DNA of 64,000 nucleotides. Origin: a bacterium (lineage in GTDB: Bacteria; Verrucomicrobiota; Verrucomicrobiia; Limisphaerales; J093). Location: NCBI GenBank assembly GCA_021780105.1, contig JAJXZJ010000021.1:1-64000 (forward strand). The letters are read 5' to 3'. Of the stretch, positions 21,622-31,268 are shown one piece after another. Within the stretch, counting starts at the first letter, position 1, and every line of letters begins with the position of its first letter. Below the pieces are notes generated by a model. That model was not told the DNA's origin and ran no database searches. It saw nothing but the letters and a program-made list of their open reading frames with translations. The translations under genes were made by a program, and so were the position numbers.

Positions 21622-24600
21622 ATGACGCGAATCATTGTCGCCCTGACGCTTGTCCTGCTCATGAACGCCCCTCTTCACGCCGGTCCGCGCGACGCGCAGT
21701 GGAAACGCGTCGAAGCCGCCGTCGCCAAGGGCCTGCCGAAGACCGCCATCGAGGCGCTGGCGCCGATCATCCAGGGCGCGCTGGCCGATCACGCGTGGGC
21801 TGAGGCGACCAAGGCCATCGCCCGGAAAATCGCGCTCGAAGGCACGATTCAAGGCAACAAGCCGGAGGAGAAGATCATCCGGTTGGAGGCGGAAATTGCG
21901 AAGGCACCAACGGAAATGGCGCCGATGCTCGATACCGTGCTGGCCGACTGGTATTGGCAATACTTCCAGCAAAACCGCTGGCGGTTCATGCAGCGCACCG
22001 CCACCGCAAAAGCACCGGGCAAGGACTTCACGACGTGGGACCTGCCGCGGCTGTTCGCCGAGATTGACGCGCAGTTCCAAAAGGCGCTCGCGGCGGAGGC
22101 GACGCTGAAGGCCACGCCAGTCGCCGCGTGGGACGACCTTTTGCAGAGAGGCGCGTTGCCCGATGCCTACCGGCCGACGCTCTACGATTTCGTCGTTCAC
22201 GAGGCGCTGGAGTTTTACACCTCCGGCGAGCAGGCCGCCGCCAAACCCGAAGACGCCTTCGAGATCGCCGCCGACAGCCCGGCGCTGGGTTCGCTGAAGG
22301 AGTTTCTCGCCTGGCAACCGGCGCCGCCCGACACGAACGCGCCGGCGCTGAAGGCCATCCGGCTTTACCAGGCGCTGCTCCGGTTTCACGAGCGGGACCG
22401 TGATCCCTCGGCGTTGTTCGACGCGGACCTCGCGCGGCTGGTCTGGGCGAAGAACGTCGCCTTCGGCGAGGACAAGAACGCGCGGTTCAAGACGGCGATG
22501 AAGGCGCTGGCGGATCAGTTTGGCGACCACGACCTCGCCGCGATGGCGCTCTACCGCTGGGCGGAGACACTGCGTGAGGAAAACCAGCTCGTCGAGGCGC
22601 GCGCCGTGGCGCAACGCGGCCGGACCACACATCCGCAAAGCGCCGGCGGCAAGCTGTGCGCCAACCTGATTGCGGAGATCGAAGGCAAATCGGCTGGCAT
22701 CGTCGCCGAGCGGATTTGGAACGCGCCGTGGCCGAACATCCAGGTCAGTTACCGCAACGTCACGAACGTCTGGTTCCGCGCGGTCGCCTGGAATTGGGAC
22801 GAGTTCCTCGACCGCAATCATCGCCGGCCGGAGAACCTGACCGACGCCGAGCGCAAGGCGGTGCTGGCCCAAACCCCGGCGCTCGCGTGGTCCGCCGCGC
22901 TGCCGCCGACCACAGATTTCCAAACGCACACCGTTGCGCTGCCAGCGCCGGCGACGCTGAAGCCGGGCTACTACTTCATCATCGCCAGCTACGACCCGGC
23001 GTTCGACGAGGCGAACAACCAGCTCTCGCTCGCGGACATCTGGGTGAGCGACCTCACGTTCGTCGCGCGGTCACGCGACGGGCAGCTTGAGGGTCTCGTG
23101 CTGCGCGCCGACTCGGGTGAGCCGGTTGCCGGCGCCCGCGTGCAGGCGTGGTTCCTGGACCAGACCGGCAACCGCGTGGCGGTGCCGGAACGGACCAGCG
23201 ACACCAACGGTTTCTTTGCGTTCGCGGCGGAACCGCGGCGCGGTTACCTCCTCAAGATCACCGCCAACGGCCAGTCCGTCGCCAGCAGCAGCGACTACTA
23301 TTTCTGGAATCAGCGTCAGCCGGTCAAACCGTCGGAGCAGACCGTTTTCTTCACCGACCGCGCGATCTACCGGCCGGGTCAGACGGTCAGTTACAAGGGC
23401 ATTTGCCTGGCGGTGGACCAGGCGAAGGACAACTACGAAACACTCGCCGGCCGTGCGGTGACGGTCGTTTTCTACGATGCGAACAACAAGGAAATCGCCC
23501 GGCAATCGCAGCGCGCGAACGACTATGGCTCGTTCAGCGGCAGCTTCACGGCGCCGCGCGACCGCGTTCTCGGCAACATGCGGCTCACGGTGGTTGAAGG
23601 TCCGCCCGGCTCGACCTGGTTGCGCGTCGAGGAATACAAACGGCCGAAGTTCCAGGTCACGCTCGACGCGCCGAAAGTCGCGGCCAGACTGAATGAAAAG
23701 GCCGCGCTCACCGGCCACGCGATGAACTACACCGGCGCGGCGGTGGACGGCGCGTTGGTGCGCTACCGCGTCGTGCGTGAAGTGCGGATGCCGTGGTGGT
23801 GGGGCTGGTGGCGCGGCGGACTCCAGCCCGGCGGCAGCCAGGAGATCGCCCACGGCACCGCCCGCACGGGCGCCGACGGCGGCTTCCCGATCGAGTTCGT
23901 CGCGAAGGCCGATCCGCAGGTGCCGGCCAAGGACGAACCGACGTTCGTGTTTCAAGTTCACGCGGACGTGACTGATTCCGCCGGTGAAACGCGCTCCGCC
24001 GACCACGCCATCCGGCTTGGTTACACCGCACTCGAAGCGCAACTCAGCGCCGACGACTGGCAGACGGACGACCGGCCGGTTGAGTTGCGCATCCGGACGA
24101 CGACGCTCGACGACGAACCGCAGATAGCCGAGGGCGTGGTGAAAATTTACGCGTTGGAAGCACCGGCAAAAGTCCATCGCACGTCGTTGTTCGGGGAAAC
24201 ACCCGATGGACCGGAGGAAAACACCGCCGCGAACAATCTCGCCGACGCGAATCAATGGCCGCTGGGCAAGGTCGTCTTCGAGCACGGTTTCACCACGGAC
24301 AAGGACGGCAAGGCGAAACTCTCGGCGCCGTTGCCGGTCGGCGCGTATCGGGCCGTGATCGAAACGCAGGATCGCTTCGGCAAAAAGGTCACCGGCCGCC
24401 TGCCGCTGGAAGTCGTGCGTCCGGTGGACAACCACTTCGCGATCCGTGTGCCGCACTGGCTGGGCGCGCCGGGTTGGTCGGTCGAACCGGGCGGGGAATT
24501 TCTGGCGGTCTGGGGCACCGGTTACGCGACCGGTCGCGCGTTTGTCGAAATCGAGCATGGCGGCAAAATGATCCAGCGATTCTGGACTGCGCCGGACGCG

Positions 24601-27600
24601 ACGCAGGCGCCGATCAAACTGCCCGTCACCGAGGCGATGCGCGGCGGCTTCACGCTGCACGTCACTTTCGTGCATGAAAATCGCGCTTACCTCGAATCGC
24701 GGCGCGTGGATGTGCCGTGGTCAAACAAGGAACTCGCGCTGAAGTGGGAGCATTTCACCTCGAAACTCCAGCCGGGACAAAAGGAAACCTGGACGCTCAA
24801 AGTCCGAAGTCCGAAATCCGAAATCCGCAGTGCGGAAAAGGCCGCCGCCGAGATGGTCGCCACGCTTTACGACGCCTCGCTTGACGCCTTTGCGCCGCTG
24901 AACTGGCCCAACGGTTTCGGCGTCTTCCGGCAGGATTTCAGCACCGCGCAGTCGTTCTTCGCCAACGACGCGCGTCACCTGCAGGTCTTCCGTCAGGACT
25001 GGCCGGTGAACACCGTGCCGGTGGACCTGAGCTACCGCGGCTTCCCGCCGGATTTGACCGCGAACGTTTGGGGCTTTCAAAGGCGCTTCGGAATGATACG
25101 GCTGGGTCGGGGCGTCGCGGTTGAGGAGGAGAAGCTCGCGACGGCCGCGCCGGCACCAGCCGCCGCCAACCTCGCCTTGCTCGACGCAGATGCCAACCGA
25201 ATGGTGGCCACGCGCATGCCCGCCAAGCATGAAGCTCCGACGACGCCCGGTTTTGCAACCGGGCTGGTTGGCGGTGTGGGTGGCGCCGTGGCGAAGGTCG
25301 GCACCGCGCCTGATTTGAACCAGGTCTCGGCCCGCAAGAACTTGAACGAAACCGCGTTTTTCTTCCCGCATTTGATGTCCGACACCAACGGCGAGGTGCG
25401 GATCACGTTCACCATGCCGGAGGCGCTGACCGAGTGGCGTTTCCTCGGCTTCGCCCACGACACCGCGTGCCGCGCCGGCCTGCTGGAGGGCAAAACCGTC
25501 ACCGCGAAGGACCTGATGGTGCAGCCGAATCCGCCGCGGTTCCTGCGCGAAGGTGACGTGATCGAGTTTGCCGTGAAGGTCTCGAACCAGAGCGACACGC
25601 GGCAGGTTGGCCGCGTGCGGCTGACGTTCACCGACGCGCTGACCGAGCAATCCGCCGACGCGCTGCTGGGCAACCGCGTGACCGAGCAGACGTTCGACAT
25701 TCCGGCAAAAACCTCGCGCAGTTACACGTGGCGGATCGCCGTGCCGGACGGATTGGCGGCGTTGACCTACAAAGCGGTCGCGGCTTCGGACAAAGTCTCT
25801 GACGGCGAGGAAGGCGTTTTCCCGGTGCTGTCGCGACGCGTGTTGGTGACCGAATCGCTGCCGCTGCCGATCCGCGGGCCGGGCACGAAGCATTTTGACT
25901 TCACGCGGCTCGAAGAATCCGGGAAGTCGTCCACCCTGCACAACCAGAGCCTCACGGTGCAGATGGTGTCGAATCCCGCGTGGTATGCGGTGATGGCGCT
26001 GCCTTATTTGATGGAGTTTCCTTACGAATGCGCCGAGCAGACGTTCAACCGCTATTACGCGAACGCGCTGGCCCGCACGATCGCGAACAGCGATCCGAAG
26101 ATTCGCCGCGTGTTCGACCTCTGGAAAAACACGCCCGCGCTCGACAGTCCGCTGGAAAAGAACCAGGATCTCAAGAGCGTGATGCTGGAGGAAACGCCGT
26201 GGTTGCGGCAGGCGCAGAGCGAAAGCCAGGCGCGCAAAAATGTTGGCCTGCTCTTCGACGACAACCGGCTGAACTCGGAACTGGAGCGCGCCTCGCGCAA
26301 GCTCACCGACGCGCAGCTTCCCGACGGCGCCTGGCCGTGGTTCCCCGGCGGCGCGGCGAACGACTACATCACGCTTTACATCACCACCGGCTTCGGCCGC
26401 TTGCGCCAGCTTGGGGCCGACGTGGACGTCGCGCCCGCCCAGCGCGCGCTCAACCGGCTCGACAACTGGATGCGCGAAGAATACGAGCGCATTTTGAAGG
26501 ATTGGAAGAAACCGGAGGATTACGTGCCCGGCGCAACCGACGCGCTTTACCTTTACGGCCGGAGTTTCTTCCTGAAAGACCAGCCGATCGCCGCCGACAA
26601 CAAGCCTGCCGTGGATTTCTTCCTCCGACAGGCCCGCCAGCACTGGCTCGAAACCAATTGCCGCCAGACGCAGGGACAACTGGCCATCGCCTTGCAGCGC
26701 TTCAACGCCGTGAACGATGCCACACCGCTAGACATCGTGAAATCGCTGAAGGAACGCTCGGTCAACGACCCGGAAATGGGCCGGTTCTGGCGGGACACGG
26801 AATTGAGCTGGTGGTGGTTCCGCGCGCCGATCGAGACGCAGGCGCTGATGATCGAGGCGTTTGGCGAGGTCGCGCACGACGATGCGGCGGTCGAGGAATG
26901 CAAAGTCTGGCTGCTCAAGCAAAAGCAGACGCAGGATTGGAAGACGACGAAGGCCACTGCGGACGCCGTTTATGCGCTGCTCCTGCGCGGCCAGAATCTC
27001 CTGGCCAGCGACAAACTGGTGGAGGTCAAACTCGGCAACCTGGATCTTACTCCTAAACCAGCCGGCACTCCCAACTCTCAACTCTCAACTCTCAATCGTG
27101 CCGAACCCGAACCGGGCACCGGCTTCTACGAGCGGCGTTTCACCGGACCGGAAATCAAGCCCGCGATGGGCCGGATCACCGTGACGAAGCGCGACGACGG
27201 TGTCGCCTGGGGCAGCGTTCACTGGCAATACCTCGAAGACATGACCAAGGTGACGCCCTATGCCGGCACGCCGTTGAAGTTGAAGAAGACCTTGTTCAAC
27301 CGGAAGAACACCAGCCGCGGCGCCGTGCTCGAAGCGGTGAACGGCCCGCTCGCCGTCGGCGACGAACTGGTGGTGCGGATCGAACTGCGCGTGGACCGCG
27401 ACATGGAATACGTCCACCTGAAGGACGAACGCGGGAGCGGCACCGAGCCGGTGGACGTGCTCTCCGGCTACCGCTATCAGGACGGCCTGGCTTACTATGA
27501 AACCACCCGCGACACCGCCACGCACTTCTTCATAGACTACCTGCCGAAGGGCACCTACGTCTTCGAGTATGCCACACGCATCCAGCTTCGCGGCCAATAC

Positions 27601-27684
27601 CAGACCGGCGTGGCGAGCATCCAGTGCATGTATGCTCCGGAGTTCAACAGCCACTCGCAGAGTTTCAATCTGGTGGTGAAGTAG
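21622..27684 (+). CDS. Bacterial alpha-2-macroglobulin family protein with thioester motif
   Basis: This 2020-aa exported protein has a signal peptide (MTRIIVALTLVLLMNAPLHAG, no lipobox). Helical repeats fill the first ~330 residues. MG-type domains follow, with FFTDRAIYRPGQTVSYKG near residue 575 and a typical FFPHLMSDTNGEVRITFTMPE stretch near 1245. A thioester domain contains PYECAEQTFNRYYAN: CAEQ fits the CxEQ thioester motif that traps attacking proteases. Unlike many proteobacterial members it has no neighbouring pbpC. Two perfect or near-perfect 28-bp heptamer repeats lie inside the reading frame and are described separately. Confidence 0.92.
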   Translation: MTRIIVALTLVLLMNAPLHAGPRDAQWKRVEAAVAKGLPKTAIEALAPIIQGALADHAWAEATKAIARKIALEGTIQGNKPEEKIIRLEAEIAKAPTEMAPMLDTVLADWYWQYFQQNRWRFMQRTATAKAPGKDFTTWDLPRLFAEIDAQFQKALAAEATLKATPVAAWDDLLQRGALPDAYRPTLYDFVVHEALEFYTSGEQAAAKPEDAFEIAADSPALGSLKEFLAWQPAPPDTNAPALKAIRLYQALLRFHERDRDPSALFDADLARLVWAKNVAFGEDKNARFKTAMKALADQFGDHDLAAMALYRWAETLREENQLVEARAVAQRGRTTHPQSAGGKLCANLIAEIEGKSAGIVAERIWNAPWPNIQVSYRNVTNVWFRAVAWNWDEFLDRNHRRPENLTDAERKAVLAQTPALAWSAALPPTTDFQTHTVALPAPATLKPGYYFIIASYDPAFDEANNQLSLADIWVSDLTFVARSRDGQLEGLVLRADSGEPVAGARVQAWFLDQTGNRVAVPERTSDTNGFFAFAAEPRRGYLLKITANGQSVASSSDYYFWNQRQPVKPSEQTVFFTDRAIYRPGQTVSYKGICLAVDQAKDNYETLAGRAVTVVFYDANNKEIARQSQRANDYGSFSGSFTAPRDRVLGNMRLTVVEGPPGSTWLRVEEYKRPKFQVTLDAPKVAARLNEKAALTGHAMNYTGAAVDGALVRYRVVREVRMPWWWGWWRGGLQPGGSQEIAHGTARTGADGGFPIEFVAKADPQVPAKDEPTFVFQVHADVTDSAGETRSADHAIRLGYTALEAQLSADDWQTDDRPVELRIRTTTLDDEPQIAEGVVKIYALEAPAKVHRTSLFGETPDGPEENTAANNLADANQWPLGKVVFEHGFTTDKDGKAKLSAPLPVGAYRAVIETQDRFGKKVTGRLPLEVVRPVDNHFAIRVPHWLGAPGWSVEPGGEFLAVWGTGYATGRAFVEIEHGGKMIQRFWTAPDATQAPIKLPVTEAMRGGFTLHVTFVHENRAYLESRRVDVPWSNKELALKWEHFTSKLQPGQKETWTLKVRSPKSEIRSAEKAAAEMVATLYDASLDAFAPLNWPNGFGVFRQDFSTAQSFFANDARHLQVFRQDWPVNTVPVDLSYRGFPPDLTANVWGFQRRFGMIRLGRGVAVEEEKLATAAPAPAAANLALLDADANRMVATRMPAKHEAPTTPGFATGLVGGVGGAVAKVGTAPDLNQVSARKNLNETAFFFPHLMSDTNGEVRITFTMPEALTEWRFLGFAHDTACRAGLLEGKTVTAKDLMVQPNPPRFLREGDVIEFAVKVSNQSDTRQVGRVRLTFTDALTEQSADALLGNRVTEQTFDIPAKTSRSYTWRIAVPDGLAALTYKAVAASDKVSDGEEGVFPVLSRRVLVTESLPLPIRGPGTKHFDFTRLEESGKSSTLHNQSLTVQMVSNPAWYAVMALPYLMEFPYECAEQTFNRYYANALARTIANSDPKIRRVFDLWKNTPALDSPLEKNQDLKSVMLEETPWLRQAQSESQARKNVGLLFDDNRLNSELERASRKLTDAQLPDGAWPWFPGGAANDYITLYITTGFGRLRQLGADVDVAPAQRALNRLDNWMREEYERILKDWKKPEDYVPGATDALYLYGRSFFLKDQPIAADNKPAVDFFLRQARQHWLETNCRQTQGQLAIALQRFNAVNDATPLDIVKSLKERSVNDPEMGRFWRDTELSWWWFRAPIETQALMIEAFGEVAHDDAAVEECKVWLLKQKQTQDWKTTKATADAVYALLLRGQNLLASDKLVEVKLGNLDLTPKPAGTPNSQLSTLNRAEPEPGTGFYERRFTGPEIKPAMGRITVTKRDDGVAWGSVHWQYLEDMTKVTPYAGTPLKLKKTLFNRKNTSRGAVLEAVNGPLAVGDELVVRIELRVDRDMEYVHLKDERGSGTEPVDVLSGYRYQDGLAYYETTRDTATHFFIDYLPKGTYVFEYATRIQLRGQYQTGVASIQCMYAPEFNSHSQSFNLVVK
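24800..24827 (+). repeat. Heptamer tandem repeat, 4 units (AARTCCG)
   Basis: Reading AAGTCCG, AAGTCCG, AAATCCG, AAATCCG, this is four contiguous 7-bp units inside the alpha-2-macroglobulin gene. It encodes part of KVRSPKSEIRSAE. It stands out from its GC-rich surroundings and resembles bacterial short tandemly repeated sequences more than coding drift. Confidence 0.85.
27068..27095 (+). repeat. Heptamer tandem repeat, 4 units (CTCYCAA)
   Basis: Reading CTCCCAA, CTCTCAA, CTCTCAA, CTCTCAA, this is a second four-unit 7-bp repeat in the same gene, of unrelated sequence but the same period and copy number. It encodes TPNSQLSTLN, a Ser/Thr/Asn linker. Confidence 0.85.
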
Positions 27685-27787: not shown

Positions 27788-28612
27788 TTAATTGCCGGGG
27801 ATCTGCTCGACGCGGAAGAACTTGCGCGCCGCGTTCGCGGGCAGGTTGATCGAGGTGGTGCCCCCACCTGCGGCAGGGAAGCTGCCGTAGTTCTGAAACG
27901 GGCCTTCGATGCTGTCGCTGAGCAGGACCTGATACGTGGCGCCGGCGACACTTGACCACGTCAGGGTGACAATCGGAGCGCCCTCTGCAAAGGTCAGTTG
28001 CGCCCCGAAGTCCGCGATGTAGGCCGCGCCATTGGCGGGGTCGAAAGGAATCTGGCTGGCTTGATTTCCAGTGTCCGTCGTCGCATCCCAGGAAAAGTCA
28101 AAACCCGGCTGCGGAAGCCCATAAAGGCTTGGGTAGTAAAGCACTTTCACGTTCGAAACGTTGAAAGTGACCGTTTCGATCAAGCGATCTTCTCCTTCGG
28201 AACCGCTCTGAGACACGCTGGACACCTGCAAGTTCTTCAGTTCGAACTGGTAGAAGTCAAACGTGCTTCCGCCCAGGCTCCTGACGGTCACCGTGGCCGT
28301 GGGCAGAATTGCTCCCTTCGCGCAGGCAGCCATGAGCGGCGCGGTCGCGGTATCCGTGTATTTCGTCAGACTCAGACTCTGAAGGCTCACCGTTCCGGAA
28401 GCGGTGCCGCCACCGGAACCCGCAACGGACTGCGTCATGCCCCAGGACCAGGACAAGACCTCGATTTCCCCCTGATGGCCGATCTCCGTCGCCTCGCCTT
28501 GGATGGGGTCGAGCTTTAGAAAAATCTCGATGCTTGCGTGAAGCGGGGTCACGAGGCTCACGAGTGCGCCCACAACGAGAACACTCAACCAGCGCAACCC
28601 TGTAGTGGCCAT
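27788..28612 (-). CDS. Exported Hcp-like protein with C-terminal extension
   Basis: This 274-aa protein has an Hcp (type VI secretion tube) fold: FLKLDPIQGEATEIGHQGEIEVLSWSWGM, then LSLTKYTDTATAPLMAACAKG and the strand VTVRSLGG. Unlike true Hcp it carries a signal peptide (LSVLVVGALVSLVTPLHA). It also adds a roughly 60-residue C-terminal beta domain (PIVTLTWSSVAGATYQVLLSDS) like those that end verrucomicrobial exported proteins. An AAGGAG Shine-Dalgarno at 28624-28619 lies 6 nt before the second ATG (MATTGL) and abuts the first (MIMATT), so I choose MATTGL. It follows a second Hcp-like gene. Confidence 0.82.
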   Translation of the reverse strand: MATTGLRWLSVLVVGALVSLVTPLHASIEIFLKLDPIQGEATEIGHQGEIEVLSWSWGMTQSVAGSGGGTASGTVSLQSLSLTKYTDTATAPLMAACAKGAILPTATVTVRSLGGSTFDFYQFELKNLQVSSVSQSGSEGEDRLIETVTFNVSNVKVLYYPSLYGLPQPGFDFSWDATTDTGNQASQIPFDPANGAAYIADFGAQLTFAEGAPIVTLTWSSVAGATYQVLLSDSIEGPFQNYGSFPAAGGGTTSINLPANAARKFFRVEQIPGN

Positions 28613-28635
28613 AATCATCTCCTTGCCGGCGACGC

Positions 28636-28663
28636 GGCCGCCGCAGTTGCACCAGCGGCGGCC
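28636..28663. other. Intercistronic perfect hairpin between the Hcp-like genes
   Basis: GGCCGCCGC-N10-GCGGCGGCC forms a 9-bp perfect stem. It sits between the upstream Hcp-like stop and the Shine-Dalgarno of the next gene. There is no T-tract, so it looks more like an mRNA-stabilising or attenuating element than a terminator. Confidence 0.6.
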
Positions 28664-28681
28664 GAAGTCCGGCGCCGGACG

Positions 28682-29233
28682 CTAGTTCGGCAAGTTGTTC
28701 GCGACATTCCAGGTGAAGGAAACCGTGCTTCCAGGGGACCCATCCGGGTTCTGCGTCTGGTAGTCATATTTGACCTTGGCAAAATTCAACGTGACGTTTT
28801 CGGTCAAACGGTCCTGTCCCCCGGATCCTCCCGTGGAAACACTCGTGACCTGGACTTCCGTCAGGGTAATTTTGACATATTCGTAAGGTTTGCCGGCCCC
28901 GATGCTTTTCAGGCAGTAGAGCGTCGCCGTTGGCAAATGGGCGCCGCTGGCACAGTCCAGCATGAGTTTGGGACTCGATTTGTCCACGTATTTGGTCAGG
29001 CTCAAATCTTGAAAGTTCGCCTTCCCCACCGCACCGGCAACCGAACCGGAATTGGACAACCCCCAAGACCAGGAAAGAACATCAATTTGGTTGGCGTGGC
29101 CATCCACCTGCGACTCGCCAGGGGTGTCACTCCCCAGATCGAGGACCATGGTGATGGCGGCCTGCGCGGAAAAGGGCGCGAGCGCCACCGCCAGATATAA
29201 GGCGCCCGCCAGGATCAGGGTTTGCGGTTTCAT
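28682..29233 (-). CDS. Exported Hcp-like protein (short form)
   Basis: This 183-aa protein has a signal peptide (MKPQTLILAGALYLAVALAPFSAQA) followed directly by an Hcp-type domain: MVLDLGSDTPGESQ, HANQIDVLSWSWGLSNSG, LSLTKYVDKSSPKLMLDCASG and the final strand YDYQTQNPDGSPGSTVSFTWNV. It lacks the C-terminal extension of its neighbour and is about the length of Hcp plus a leader. The two genes form a minus-strand pair and are clearly paralogous. No TssB, TssC, ClpV or VgrG gene is in the window, so a classical type VI role is not supported. Confidence 0.82.
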   Translation of the reverse strand: MKPQTLILAGALYLAVALAPFSAQAAITMVLDLGSDTPGESQVDGHANQIDVLSWSWGLSNSGSVAGAVGKANFQDLSLTKYVDKSSPKLMLDCASGAHLPTATLYCLKSIGAGKPYEYVKITLTEVQVTSVSTGGSGGQDRLTENVTLNFAKVKYDYQTQNPDGSPGSTVSFTWNVANNLPN

Positions 29234-29465: not shown

Positions 29466-30869
29466 TCACGCCAGCGCCTTGCGCCAGCGGGCCAGTTGCC
29501 GTTGCACTTCCCTGGTCCCCGGCGCGCCGGGGAGCGTGCGCCGTGCCATCGCCTTTTCCAGATCAAACACCTCCAGCGCGTCGGCCTCGAACGCCGGGTC
29601 CGCGCCGCGCAACTCCTCAAGCGAAAGCTGGTCAAGCGGTTTGCCGAGTTTCTCCGCCAGCCCCACGACCGCGCCGACGACGTGGTGCGCCTGCCGGAAG
29701 GCCATGCCGCGCCGCACGAGGTAGTCCGCCAGGTCCGTGGCCAGCAGCAAGGGATCGCGCGCCGCGGCGGCGCAGGCCGCGGCGTTGACGCTGGTGTGCG
29801 CGAGCATCGCCGCCATGAGCCGGACACAGGCGCGTGCGGTGTCGGCCGTGTCGAAGAGCCGTTCCTTGTCCTCCTGCAAATCGCGGTTGTAGGTCATCGG
29901 CAGGCCTTTCAATAGCGTGAGCAAGGCGACGAGGTTGCCGATGACGCGGGCCGATTTGCCCCGCGTCAGCTCGGCCACGTCGGGATTTTTCTTCTGCGGC
30001 ATGAGCGACGAGCCGGTGGTGTAGGCGTCGGCGATGCGGATGAAGTTGAATTCGCTGCCGGCCCAGAGGATCACGTCCTCAGCCAGCCGGCTCAGGTGGA
30101 CAGCGATCAACGCGGCGGCGGCACAAAATTCGACGGCGAAATCCCGGTCGCTCACCGCATCCATGGAATTTTGCGAGACGAGCGGTCTGCCCCTGGCGTC
30201 CACGAACCCGAGTTGCCGGGCGACGAATTCGCGGTCCAGCGGCAGCGTGCTGCCGGCGAGCGCGCCGGCGCCGAGCGGACAGACGTTGGCGCGGCGGGCG
30301 GCGTCCGCCAGCCGGCCGTGGTCGCGATCGAGCATTTCGACGTAGGCCAGCAGGTGGTGCGCGAAATAAACCGGCTGGGCGCGTTGGAGATGCGTGTAGC
30401 CGGGGAGGATGACACCGGTGTGGGCCGCGCCGAGTTCGACCAAGGCGCGCTGAAGGACACGGAGTTCCGCGGATAGGGCCGCGCTTTCGTCGCGAAGCCA
30501 GAGGCGGACATCGAGAGCCACCTGGTCGTTGCGCGAGCGGCCGGTGTGGAGCTTCGCGCCGGCCGGGACACGGCGGGTCAGCTCGGCCTCAATGTTCATG
30601 TGGACGTCCTCCAGCTCCGGTTTCCACGCGAACTTGCCGGCCTCGATCTCGGCGCTGATCTCTTCCAACCCGCGCACGATGGCGTTGGCCTCGGTTTTCG
30701 TGAGCAATCCGACCTGCTGAAGCATCCGGGCGTGGGCGATGGAACCGGTGAGGTCGTATCTCCAGAGGCGCCAGTCGAAGGAAATGGATTCGGAAAACGC
30801 CGCGACGTCGGCGGCCGGGCCGCTGGCGAACCGGCCGGAGCGCGAGACGGGAGAGAATTTCTGGCTCAT
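29466..30869 (-). CDS. argH: Argininosuccinate lyase
   Basis: From the ATG of MSQKFSPVSRSGRF the protein is 467 aa, the usual length. It splits argininosuccinate into arginine and fumarate, the last step of arginine synthesis. Hallmarks are EDVHMNIEAELTRRVPAGAKLHTGRSRNDQ, the substrate-loop signature GSSLMPQKKNPDVAELTRGK near residue 280 and the HTGVILPGYTHLQRAQP stretch. It is a cytoplasmic tetramer by family. Its 5' region contains a terminator-like hairpin about 70 nt before the start codon, described separately. Confidence 0.96.
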   Translation of the reverse strand: MSQKFSPVSRSGRFASGPAADVAAFSESISFDWRLWRYDLTGSIAHARMLQQVGLLTKTEANAIVRGLEEISAEIEAGKFAWKPELEDVHMNIEAELTRRVPAGAKLHTGRSRNDQVALDVRLWLRDESAALSAELRVLQRALVELGAAHTGVILPGYTHLQRAQPVYFAHHLLAYVEMLDRDHGRLADAARRANVCPLGAGALAGSTLPLDREFVARQLGFVDARGRPLVSQNSMDAVSDRDFAVEFCAAAALIAVHLSRLAEDVILWAGSEFNFIRIADAYTTGSSLMPQKKNPDVAELTRGKSARVIGNLVALLTLLKGLPMTYNRDLQEDKERLFDTADTARACVRLMAAMLAHTSVNAAACAAAARDPLLLATDLADYLVRRGMAFRQAHHVVGAVVGLAEKLGKPLDQLSLEELRGADPAFEADALEVFDLEKAMARRTLPGAPGTREVQRQLARWRKALA

Positions 30870-31268
30870 CTTGACCGACCGAATGTGCCGGGCAAGCGCC
30901 GAAAAGTCACGTCGGAAAGGTCGCCCCGTCAGGGCAAAAAAAGTGGCGGGCCGGACAACCAACAAACCGGCCCGCCTTCCGCTGGTCCCAACCACCGGAG
31001 TTTATCCGCGTCTCCCTGACCTCACACACATGGCGCAGAAATCATCGGGTTCCCCATCGCGGCTCAAACACGGTAAAAAGAACATGCGAACACCCTGAAA
31101 AACAGCAGGCGCAGTGCCAGCTTTTGCCGCACTTCGGAAAAACCACTGGCAGAATCAAGTTTTTTGGCAGGACTGGCGGCGGCGTTCCATCCGGCCCGCC
31201 GGCTAACAAATGGTTCGACGTGCGGGTTTTGGCTGCAAACGCAAACGTCACGGGGTATTTTGCCGCCG
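30870..31268. other. Divergent argH / copA intergenic region
   Basis: This 399-nt region separates the divergent argH and copper-ATPase genes. It holds the argH-side hairpin at 30936-30976 and, on the minus strand just before it, a 9-codon ORF with three arginine codons. The longer ORFs here (minus 69 and 86 aa, plus 91 aa) are not credible genes. No tandem repeat or known riboswitch was recognised. Confidence 0.55.
30936..30976 (-). terminator. Rho-independent terminator upstream of argH
   Basis: GGCGGGCCGG-N12-CCGGCCCGCC is a perfect 10-bp stem. On the minus strand it is followed by ACTTTTTTTG. It reads toward argH and ends about 65 nt before the argH start, so it either ends a short leader or small RNA or acts as an attenuator. 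On the plus strand no T-run follows. Confidence 0.75.

Follow-up and report, generated by a model that had tools for sequence, protein, structure and literature searches.

The closest described relatives of the proteins examined here are the tube proteins of type VI secretion systems (T6SS), Hcp or TssD (PF05638), exemplified by P. aeruginosa Hcp1 (PDB 1Y12). Purified Hcps are stable hexamers that stack weakly (KD 7 µM); no tubes formed without VgrG, and tubes in vivo likewise needed VgrG (PMC3925092). Loop L2,3 is needed for stacking in two T6SS Hcps, and T6SS Hcps also act as effector receptors and chaperones in the cytoplasm (PMC5874247). Hcps are stated to be without signal peptides (PMC2492809; PMC2944823). 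Hcp domains also occur with a C-terminal extension, in the evolved Hcps of T6SS, and as two adjacent genes in Betaproteobacteria (Zoogloea, Thauera, Aquabacterium; L118, L128, L149). In these genera and in Ramlibacter (L124), as at further loci, a second, divergent, leaderless Hcp gene lies directly after the canonical one.

We analyzed a 64,000-nt stretch of DNA from a member of the Limisphaerales (Verrucomicrobiota), hereafter the window, in which two adjacent minus-strand genes, a short one followed by a long one, encode Hcp-like proteins with predicted export leaders. Their features are as follows:

28682-29233, minus strand: short gene of the predicted exported Hcp pair; ORF of 183 aa, comprising a leader and an Hcp domain only
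29159-29233, minus strand: predicted Sec leader of the short protein, MKPQTLILAGALYLAVALAPFSAQA, with cleavage after residue 25 (rule-based test and alignment)
28760-29125, minus strand: Hcp domain of the short protein (PF05638, 120.5 bits)
28636-28663, minus strand: intercistronic inverted repeat with perfect 9-bp arms (28636-28644 and 28655-28663) and a 10-nt loop
28619-28624, minus strand: ribosome-binding-like AAGGAG before the long gene, read from the sequence and best spaced for the ATG at 28612
27788-28618, minus strand: long gene of the predicted exported Hcp pair; ORF of 276 aa, comprising a leader, an Hcp domain and a C-terminal beta domain
28535-28618, minus strand: predicted Sec leader of the long protein, ending TPLHA/SIEIF (sequence, leader test and alignment with other long proteins)
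28136-28522, minus strand: Hcp domain of the long protein (PF05638, 104.7 bits)
27791-28021, minus strand: C-terminal beta domain of the long protein, about 70 aa (profile matches and strands of the AF2 model)

The two ORFs are 63 nt apart. Because the AAGGAG runs right up to the first ATG of the long gene but precedes the second (28612) by 6 nt, the second ATG is probably the true start, which would give a protein of 274 aa. An intercistronic hairpin had been claimed in an earlier note on this DNA, along with differential dosage of the two products. The hairpin is present as a perfect 9-bp inverted repeat, but it folds only modestly better than shuffled sequences (z = -1.86; 9 of 200 shuffles equally good) and its position is not conserved among other short-long pairs, by which a regulatory role was ruled out. 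Hairpin-driven dosage is likewise unsupported, since in many homologous pairs the genes overlap or are separated by a few bases. Matches to sigma-70 promoters and terminators near the pair were at chance level. Downstream, a bacterial alpha-2-macroglobulin gene (21622-27684, plus strand) runs convergent to the pair and encodes a 2020-aa protein with a leader; upstream lie genes for argininosuccinate lyase (29466-30995, minus strand) and then a copper-type P-ATPase. No type VI genes were found among the neighbors in the window.

Both proteins proved to be Hcp-like, as had been claimed, by profile score over the whole domain and by tertiary fold. The short protein matched PF05638 (T6SS_HCP) at 1.1e-34 (~120 bits) and the long protein at 2.5e-29 (~102.6-104.7 bits), against a gathering cut-off of 23.5, while both fell under the cut-off of 58.9 of the TssD model (TIGR03344; 56.1 bits for the short and 36.4 for the long). 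Hcp1 (1Y12) was the nearest solved structure by sequence for both (phmmer 9e-49 for the short protein), with an identity over the aligned domain of 57% for the short and 42% for the long. It was also the top PDB match in Foldseek searches with AF2 models of the short protein (pLDDT 89; E = 3.8e-20; TM 0.80/0.91) and the long protein (pLDDT 86; E = 1.7e-14). The short protein retains most Hcp-conserved positions. The products of 28682-29233 and 27788-28618 are thus real members of the Hcp-fold family; they are not a T6SS tube protein, for while the fold is the same and the canonical positions are largely kept in the short protein, each carries a Sec leader in place of the start methionine, TssC, TssF and VgrG are lacking, and the pair includes an obligate partner with a C-terminal tail.

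The leaders, also asserted previously, are by sequence real on both proteins, and this is a rule-based prediction: they were called on all collected Hcp ORFs by a start codon, positive charge, a hydrophobic stretch and a small-x-small site at the domain edge, rather than by SignalP or proteomics. The predicted junctions are MKPQTLILAGALYLAVALAPFSAQA/AITM in the short protein and M(IM)ATTGLRWLSVLVVGALVSLVTPLHA/SIEI in the long one. In each, the AxA site sits where cytosolic Hcp has its start methionine: the alignment places FSAQA/AITMVLDLG of the short protein against M/AVDMFIKI of a cytosolic Hcp, and A26 of the short protein against A2 of leaderless Hcps, so that the leader takes the place of the initiator methionine. 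A wrongly assigned start codon was ruled out as the source of the leaders, since neither window gene has an in-frame ATG at the domain boundary; among leaderless Hcps such an ATG was present in 18 of 19 from tss loci and 92 of 98 from other phyla.

When the same rule was applied across Verrucomicrobiota, leader-like N-termini were found in 45 of 53 Hcps encoded outside tss loci (51 of 53 by eye) and in none of 19 encoded within them. Six of the eight that failed the rule have a visible leader that misses the threshold or the annotated start, and the other two, both from genome G274, are the sole proteins of the 53 without any leader. Elsewhere, one of 98 Hcps from other phyla scored as leader-like, with an implausible, spurious GTG start, as did 4 of 72 ORFs in Planctomycetota (a few ORFs are counted in duplicate in these two sets). 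The four planctomycetal proteins (L242, L246, L247, L252) resemble the window pair in having an Hcp domain behind a Sec-type leader, but they are single genes, rare in their phylum, and deep and separate in the Hcp tree. One of them (L252, genome G720) ends in a C-terminal extension that by eye resembles a dockerin (GDGIVDIIDLAILASDWL), which suggests attachment to a larger extracellular complex.

A tube protein of a T6SS would be expected beside TssC (sheath), TssF (baseplate) and VgrG (spike) in the same genome. None of the three was found in the whole assembly (4.55 Mb, 93.8% complete), which bears out, beyond the window, the assertion that type VI genes are absent and rules out a T6SS concealed elsewhere in it. 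We then sampled 388 genomes of Verrucomicrobiota, of which 33 had Hcp and 15 had TssC. Hcp occurred without TssC in 20 of the 33, and 19 of these 20 carried a leader-bearing Hcp, G274 being the exception; the 12 genomes examined of the 13 with both genes had leaderless Hcps. TssC was absent where Hcp bears a leader, except in two genomes with a separate T6SS locus and leaderless Hcp: in G013, a leader pair and a leaderless Hcp with TssC occupy separate loci, and in G039 a leader-bearing Hcp lies apart from a leaderless one beside TssC. Within Limisphaerales, five genomes (G004, G010, G018, G019, G031) have the leader pair without TssC or TssF, and two (G021, G024) have a leaderless Hcp adjoining TssC. 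Further leader carriers without TssC were Pontiellaceae B12219, a MAG labelled Akkermansia muciniphila and Verrucomicrobiales RYN_622. TssC, TssF and VgrG were also absent from the other genomes that have only the pair (several of them single-contig or ≥97% complete), in which one weak phage-like GPD match was obtained (G158). Conversely, TssC was present in the genomes with leaderless Hcp that were tested in Planctomycetota, Acidobacteria, Ramlibacter and Zoogloea. A contig search with the trio query yielded T6SS Hcps for the most part, along with three leader pairs from Verrucomicrobiota. The mutual exclusion of leaders and tss genes is nearly perfect across some 70 verrucomicrobial proteins. 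The co-occurrence of leaders and tss absence across 22 genomes supports, on sequence grounds, the independence of the exported Hcps from T6SS; of the earlier proposal of a repurposed, exported Hcp fold without T6SS, this part stands, while the ring or tube structures that went with it are taken up below at lesser strength.

The exceptional genome, G274, is 99% complete and without TssC or VgrG, and its Hcp-like genes form a leaderless tandem pair (L097, 1065-2042) that adjoins a gene for a Kelch-repeat protein with a Tat-like leader; this pair belongs to neither the T6SS nor the exported class. The betaproteobacterial tandems differ from the window pair in that both proteins are leaderless and short, and TssC was present in both genomes tested (Ramlibacter, Zoogloea).

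At 25 loci in 22 genomes, a short leader-Hcp gene lay upstream of a long leader-Hcp gene with a C-terminal extension every time, on one strand and with spacing from overlap to about 60 nt. The extension spans about 70-600 aa in complete genes, and in most long proteins a beta domain of one kind forms its end. In many, this domain is preceded by acidic DxDxDG repeats matching bacterial TSP3 (above the cut-off in L029 and L091), and Ig or cadherin repeats occur in a few (L080); the window protein has the terminal beta domain without the TSP3 stretch. Since no neighbor gene was found conserved across lineages, the pair looks self-contained, and a conserved larger gene cluster was ruled out. Two neighbor types recur: a gene for a large spermidine-synthase-like membrane protein adjoins the pair in three distantly related genomes (L030, L080, L083), and immediately downstream of the pair, in four genomes that belong to one family, is a gene for a DUF7782/DUF7059 methyltransferase (L081, L084, L087, L091). 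At four other loci (L085, L093, L031, L099) the order is reversed, a divergent leader-bearing Hcp-like gene coming right after the gene of a longer leader-bearing protein, which contains TSP3 in L085 and is EF-hand-like in L099.

The additional C-terminal beta domain noted on one of the two proteins is recovered in the AF2 model as strands at residues 205-271 (block pLDDT 78-93). A profile of it (A7), with the motif L-x-W-x(5-8)-Y-x-[VIL]...F[FY]RV, had about 22 matches in the source genome itself (G000; L267-L288), including the window copy. The carriers are proteins of 270-4100 aa, and in 21 of the 22 cases the end of the match is 0-14 residues from the stop codon, in long ORFs that otherwise differ from one another. 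The domain is thus a generic one found at the extreme C-terminus of many proteins of this genome. It resembles in this respect the T9SS CTD and PEP-CTERM, which are likewise short domains at the extreme C-terminus of many unrelated proteins; the comparison is one of analogy, not of membership, and the window copy, unlike those domains, matches no Pfam or NCBIfam model, whether of a known sorting family or any other. By this analogy, it is likely a candidate surface-sorting or attachment domain of Verrucomicrobiota. An evolved Hcp with a toxin tail was ruled out, since the tail is common to about 21 other proteins and matched no toxin family; while evolved Hcps share the architecture of an Hcp domain with a C-terminal extension, the verrucomicrobial extensions are generic beta, TSP3, cadherin or Ig domains rather than toxins, behind a leader and without a T6SS.

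Short and long proteins have diverged to different degrees. In none of the 25 pairs was the long protein closer to Hcp1 than the short one. Of the positions that are conserved among proteobacterial T6SS Hcps, shorts retained 55% and longs 39%, against 43% for verrucomicrobial T6SS Hcps. Loop L2,3, normally about 17 residues by the count used, has 16-19 in most shorts, and about half of the longs have a shortened version. Of the two window proteins, the long one has a loop that is not shortened, and that of the short one is about 4 residues below the usual length. Mean Hcp-domain identity was 35% within pairs versus 26% across genomes, although a protein's own partner was its best match in only 9 of 25. 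This within-pair similarity is a hint, from sequence comparison, of co-assembly; it could instead reflect recent tandem duplication. In a quick, weakly supported tree with many open forks, exported Hcps are scattered among T6SS Hcps rather than forming one clade, and the window short protein falls into a group with verrucomicrobial and proteobacterial T6SS Hcps. From this scatter, leaders were probably gained more than once, albeit with weak support from the tree, and function may differ among lineages.

The reading we favor, to which we give about an even chance, is that the pair encodes exported Hcp rings, with an attachment tail on the long subunit, in a bacterium without a T6SS. The short and long genes would form an operon for two Sec-exported Hcp-fold proteins, whose leaders would be cut by signal peptidase, so that the mature N-termini correspond to those of cytosolic Hcp. 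Once exported, the short protein would probably assemble, as expected from its family, into hexameric rings and perhaps short stacks, and the long protein would probably join or cap them. Its C-terminal beta domain would probably, by analogy, tether the rings to the cell surface or extracellular matrix, in many relatives behind a TSP3 stretch of the calcium-binding type, and the assembly may have a structural or adhesive role; adhesion, a surface layer and a carrier ring are candidate functions. Ring assembly of the window proteins is plausible given the fold and positions kept in the short protein and the hexamers of the family. Tubes are less probable than rings or short stacks, given the weak stacking of Hcp hexamers without VgrG, the absence of VgrG from the genome and the shorter L2,3 loop of the window's short protein.

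Several other readings bear on the same observations. The Hcp fold could serve as a secreted beta-barrel binding module, a monomeric or small-oligomer adhesin or ligand-binding domain that builds neither rings nor tubes, with the long protein being an ordinary multi-domain surface protein. The TSP3, cadherin, Ig-type and generic C-terminal domains of the longs are typical of surface proteins, and the low retention of canonical positions (39%) and loss of loop L2,3 in many longs fit this; yet the shorts are bare Hcp domains with canonical positions and loop length, the gene of the long protein always has that of such a bare ring subunit next to it, and all purified Hcps reported are hexamers (PMC3925092), which leads us to regard a module of this kind as unlikely. 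The exported ring could also act in the periplasm as a chaperone, carrier or conduit that takes small secreted proteins into its 4-nm lumen, with the long protein docking it to the outer membrane. The shared fold, the likely ring and the role of T6SS Hcps as effector receptors and chaperones (PMC5874247) speak for this, whereas conserved cargo-like neighbor genes are absent, and we consider it improbable.

The placement of the short protein among T6SS Hcps in the tree, and its 57% identity to Hcp1, could also mean that these are orphan T6SS Hcps, serving a missed T6SS or persisting as relics, with leaders that are chance hydrophobic N-termini or products of wrong starts; the assembly, at 94% complete, leaves some room for missed genes. 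Against this, TssC, TssF and VgrG are absent both here and in other pair-only genomes of high completeness, there is no alternative start at the domain edge, and leaders and tss genes exclude one another almost perfectly, making the explanation very improbable. The same closeness to proteobacterial T6SS Hcps might allow the short protein to co-assemble with them and so act as a defensive decoy, an exported periplasmic or surface Hcp that disrupts the incoming T6SS tubes of competitors, and most carriers are indeed without a T6SS of their own. However, a defense context or immunity neighbors are absent, the attachment tail of the long partner is left unexplained, and the Hcp domains of many pairs are too distant (20-30% identity) from those of attackers, so that we hold a decoy to be the least probable of these readings.

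Returning to exported rings with an attachment tail, we propose more tentatively, and as a possibility we would not yet favor, that Verrucomicrobiota have more than once made the T6SS tube protein into a leader-bearing, two-subunit surface ring or fibre, composed of a plain Hcp and a second Hcp with a C-terminal sorting domain specific to the phylum. While the Hcp fold family itself is already known, no paper on leader-bearing Hcps was found in the open literature searched, and as far as that search extended, tandem short-long Hcps that bear leaders, are independent of T6SS and include a sorting-like tail are undescribed. Hcp is routinely annotated as 'type VI secretion tube protein' and often treated as a T6SS marker; with 20 of 33 Hcp-positive Verrucomicrobiota genomes lacking TssC, the T6SS annotation is very likely wrong for a widespread set of Hcps. 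The unmodelled beta domain may mark a surface-sorting route in these little-studied bacteria. That the short-long plan recurs among the Verrucomicrobiota genomes sampled suggests that a component of a weapon has been put to new use outside the cytoplasm. If rings do form outside the cell, the Hcp fold would have gained another role, that of a structural module for export, and the pair would represent a new class of extracytoplasmic Hcp assembly without any contractile apparatus.
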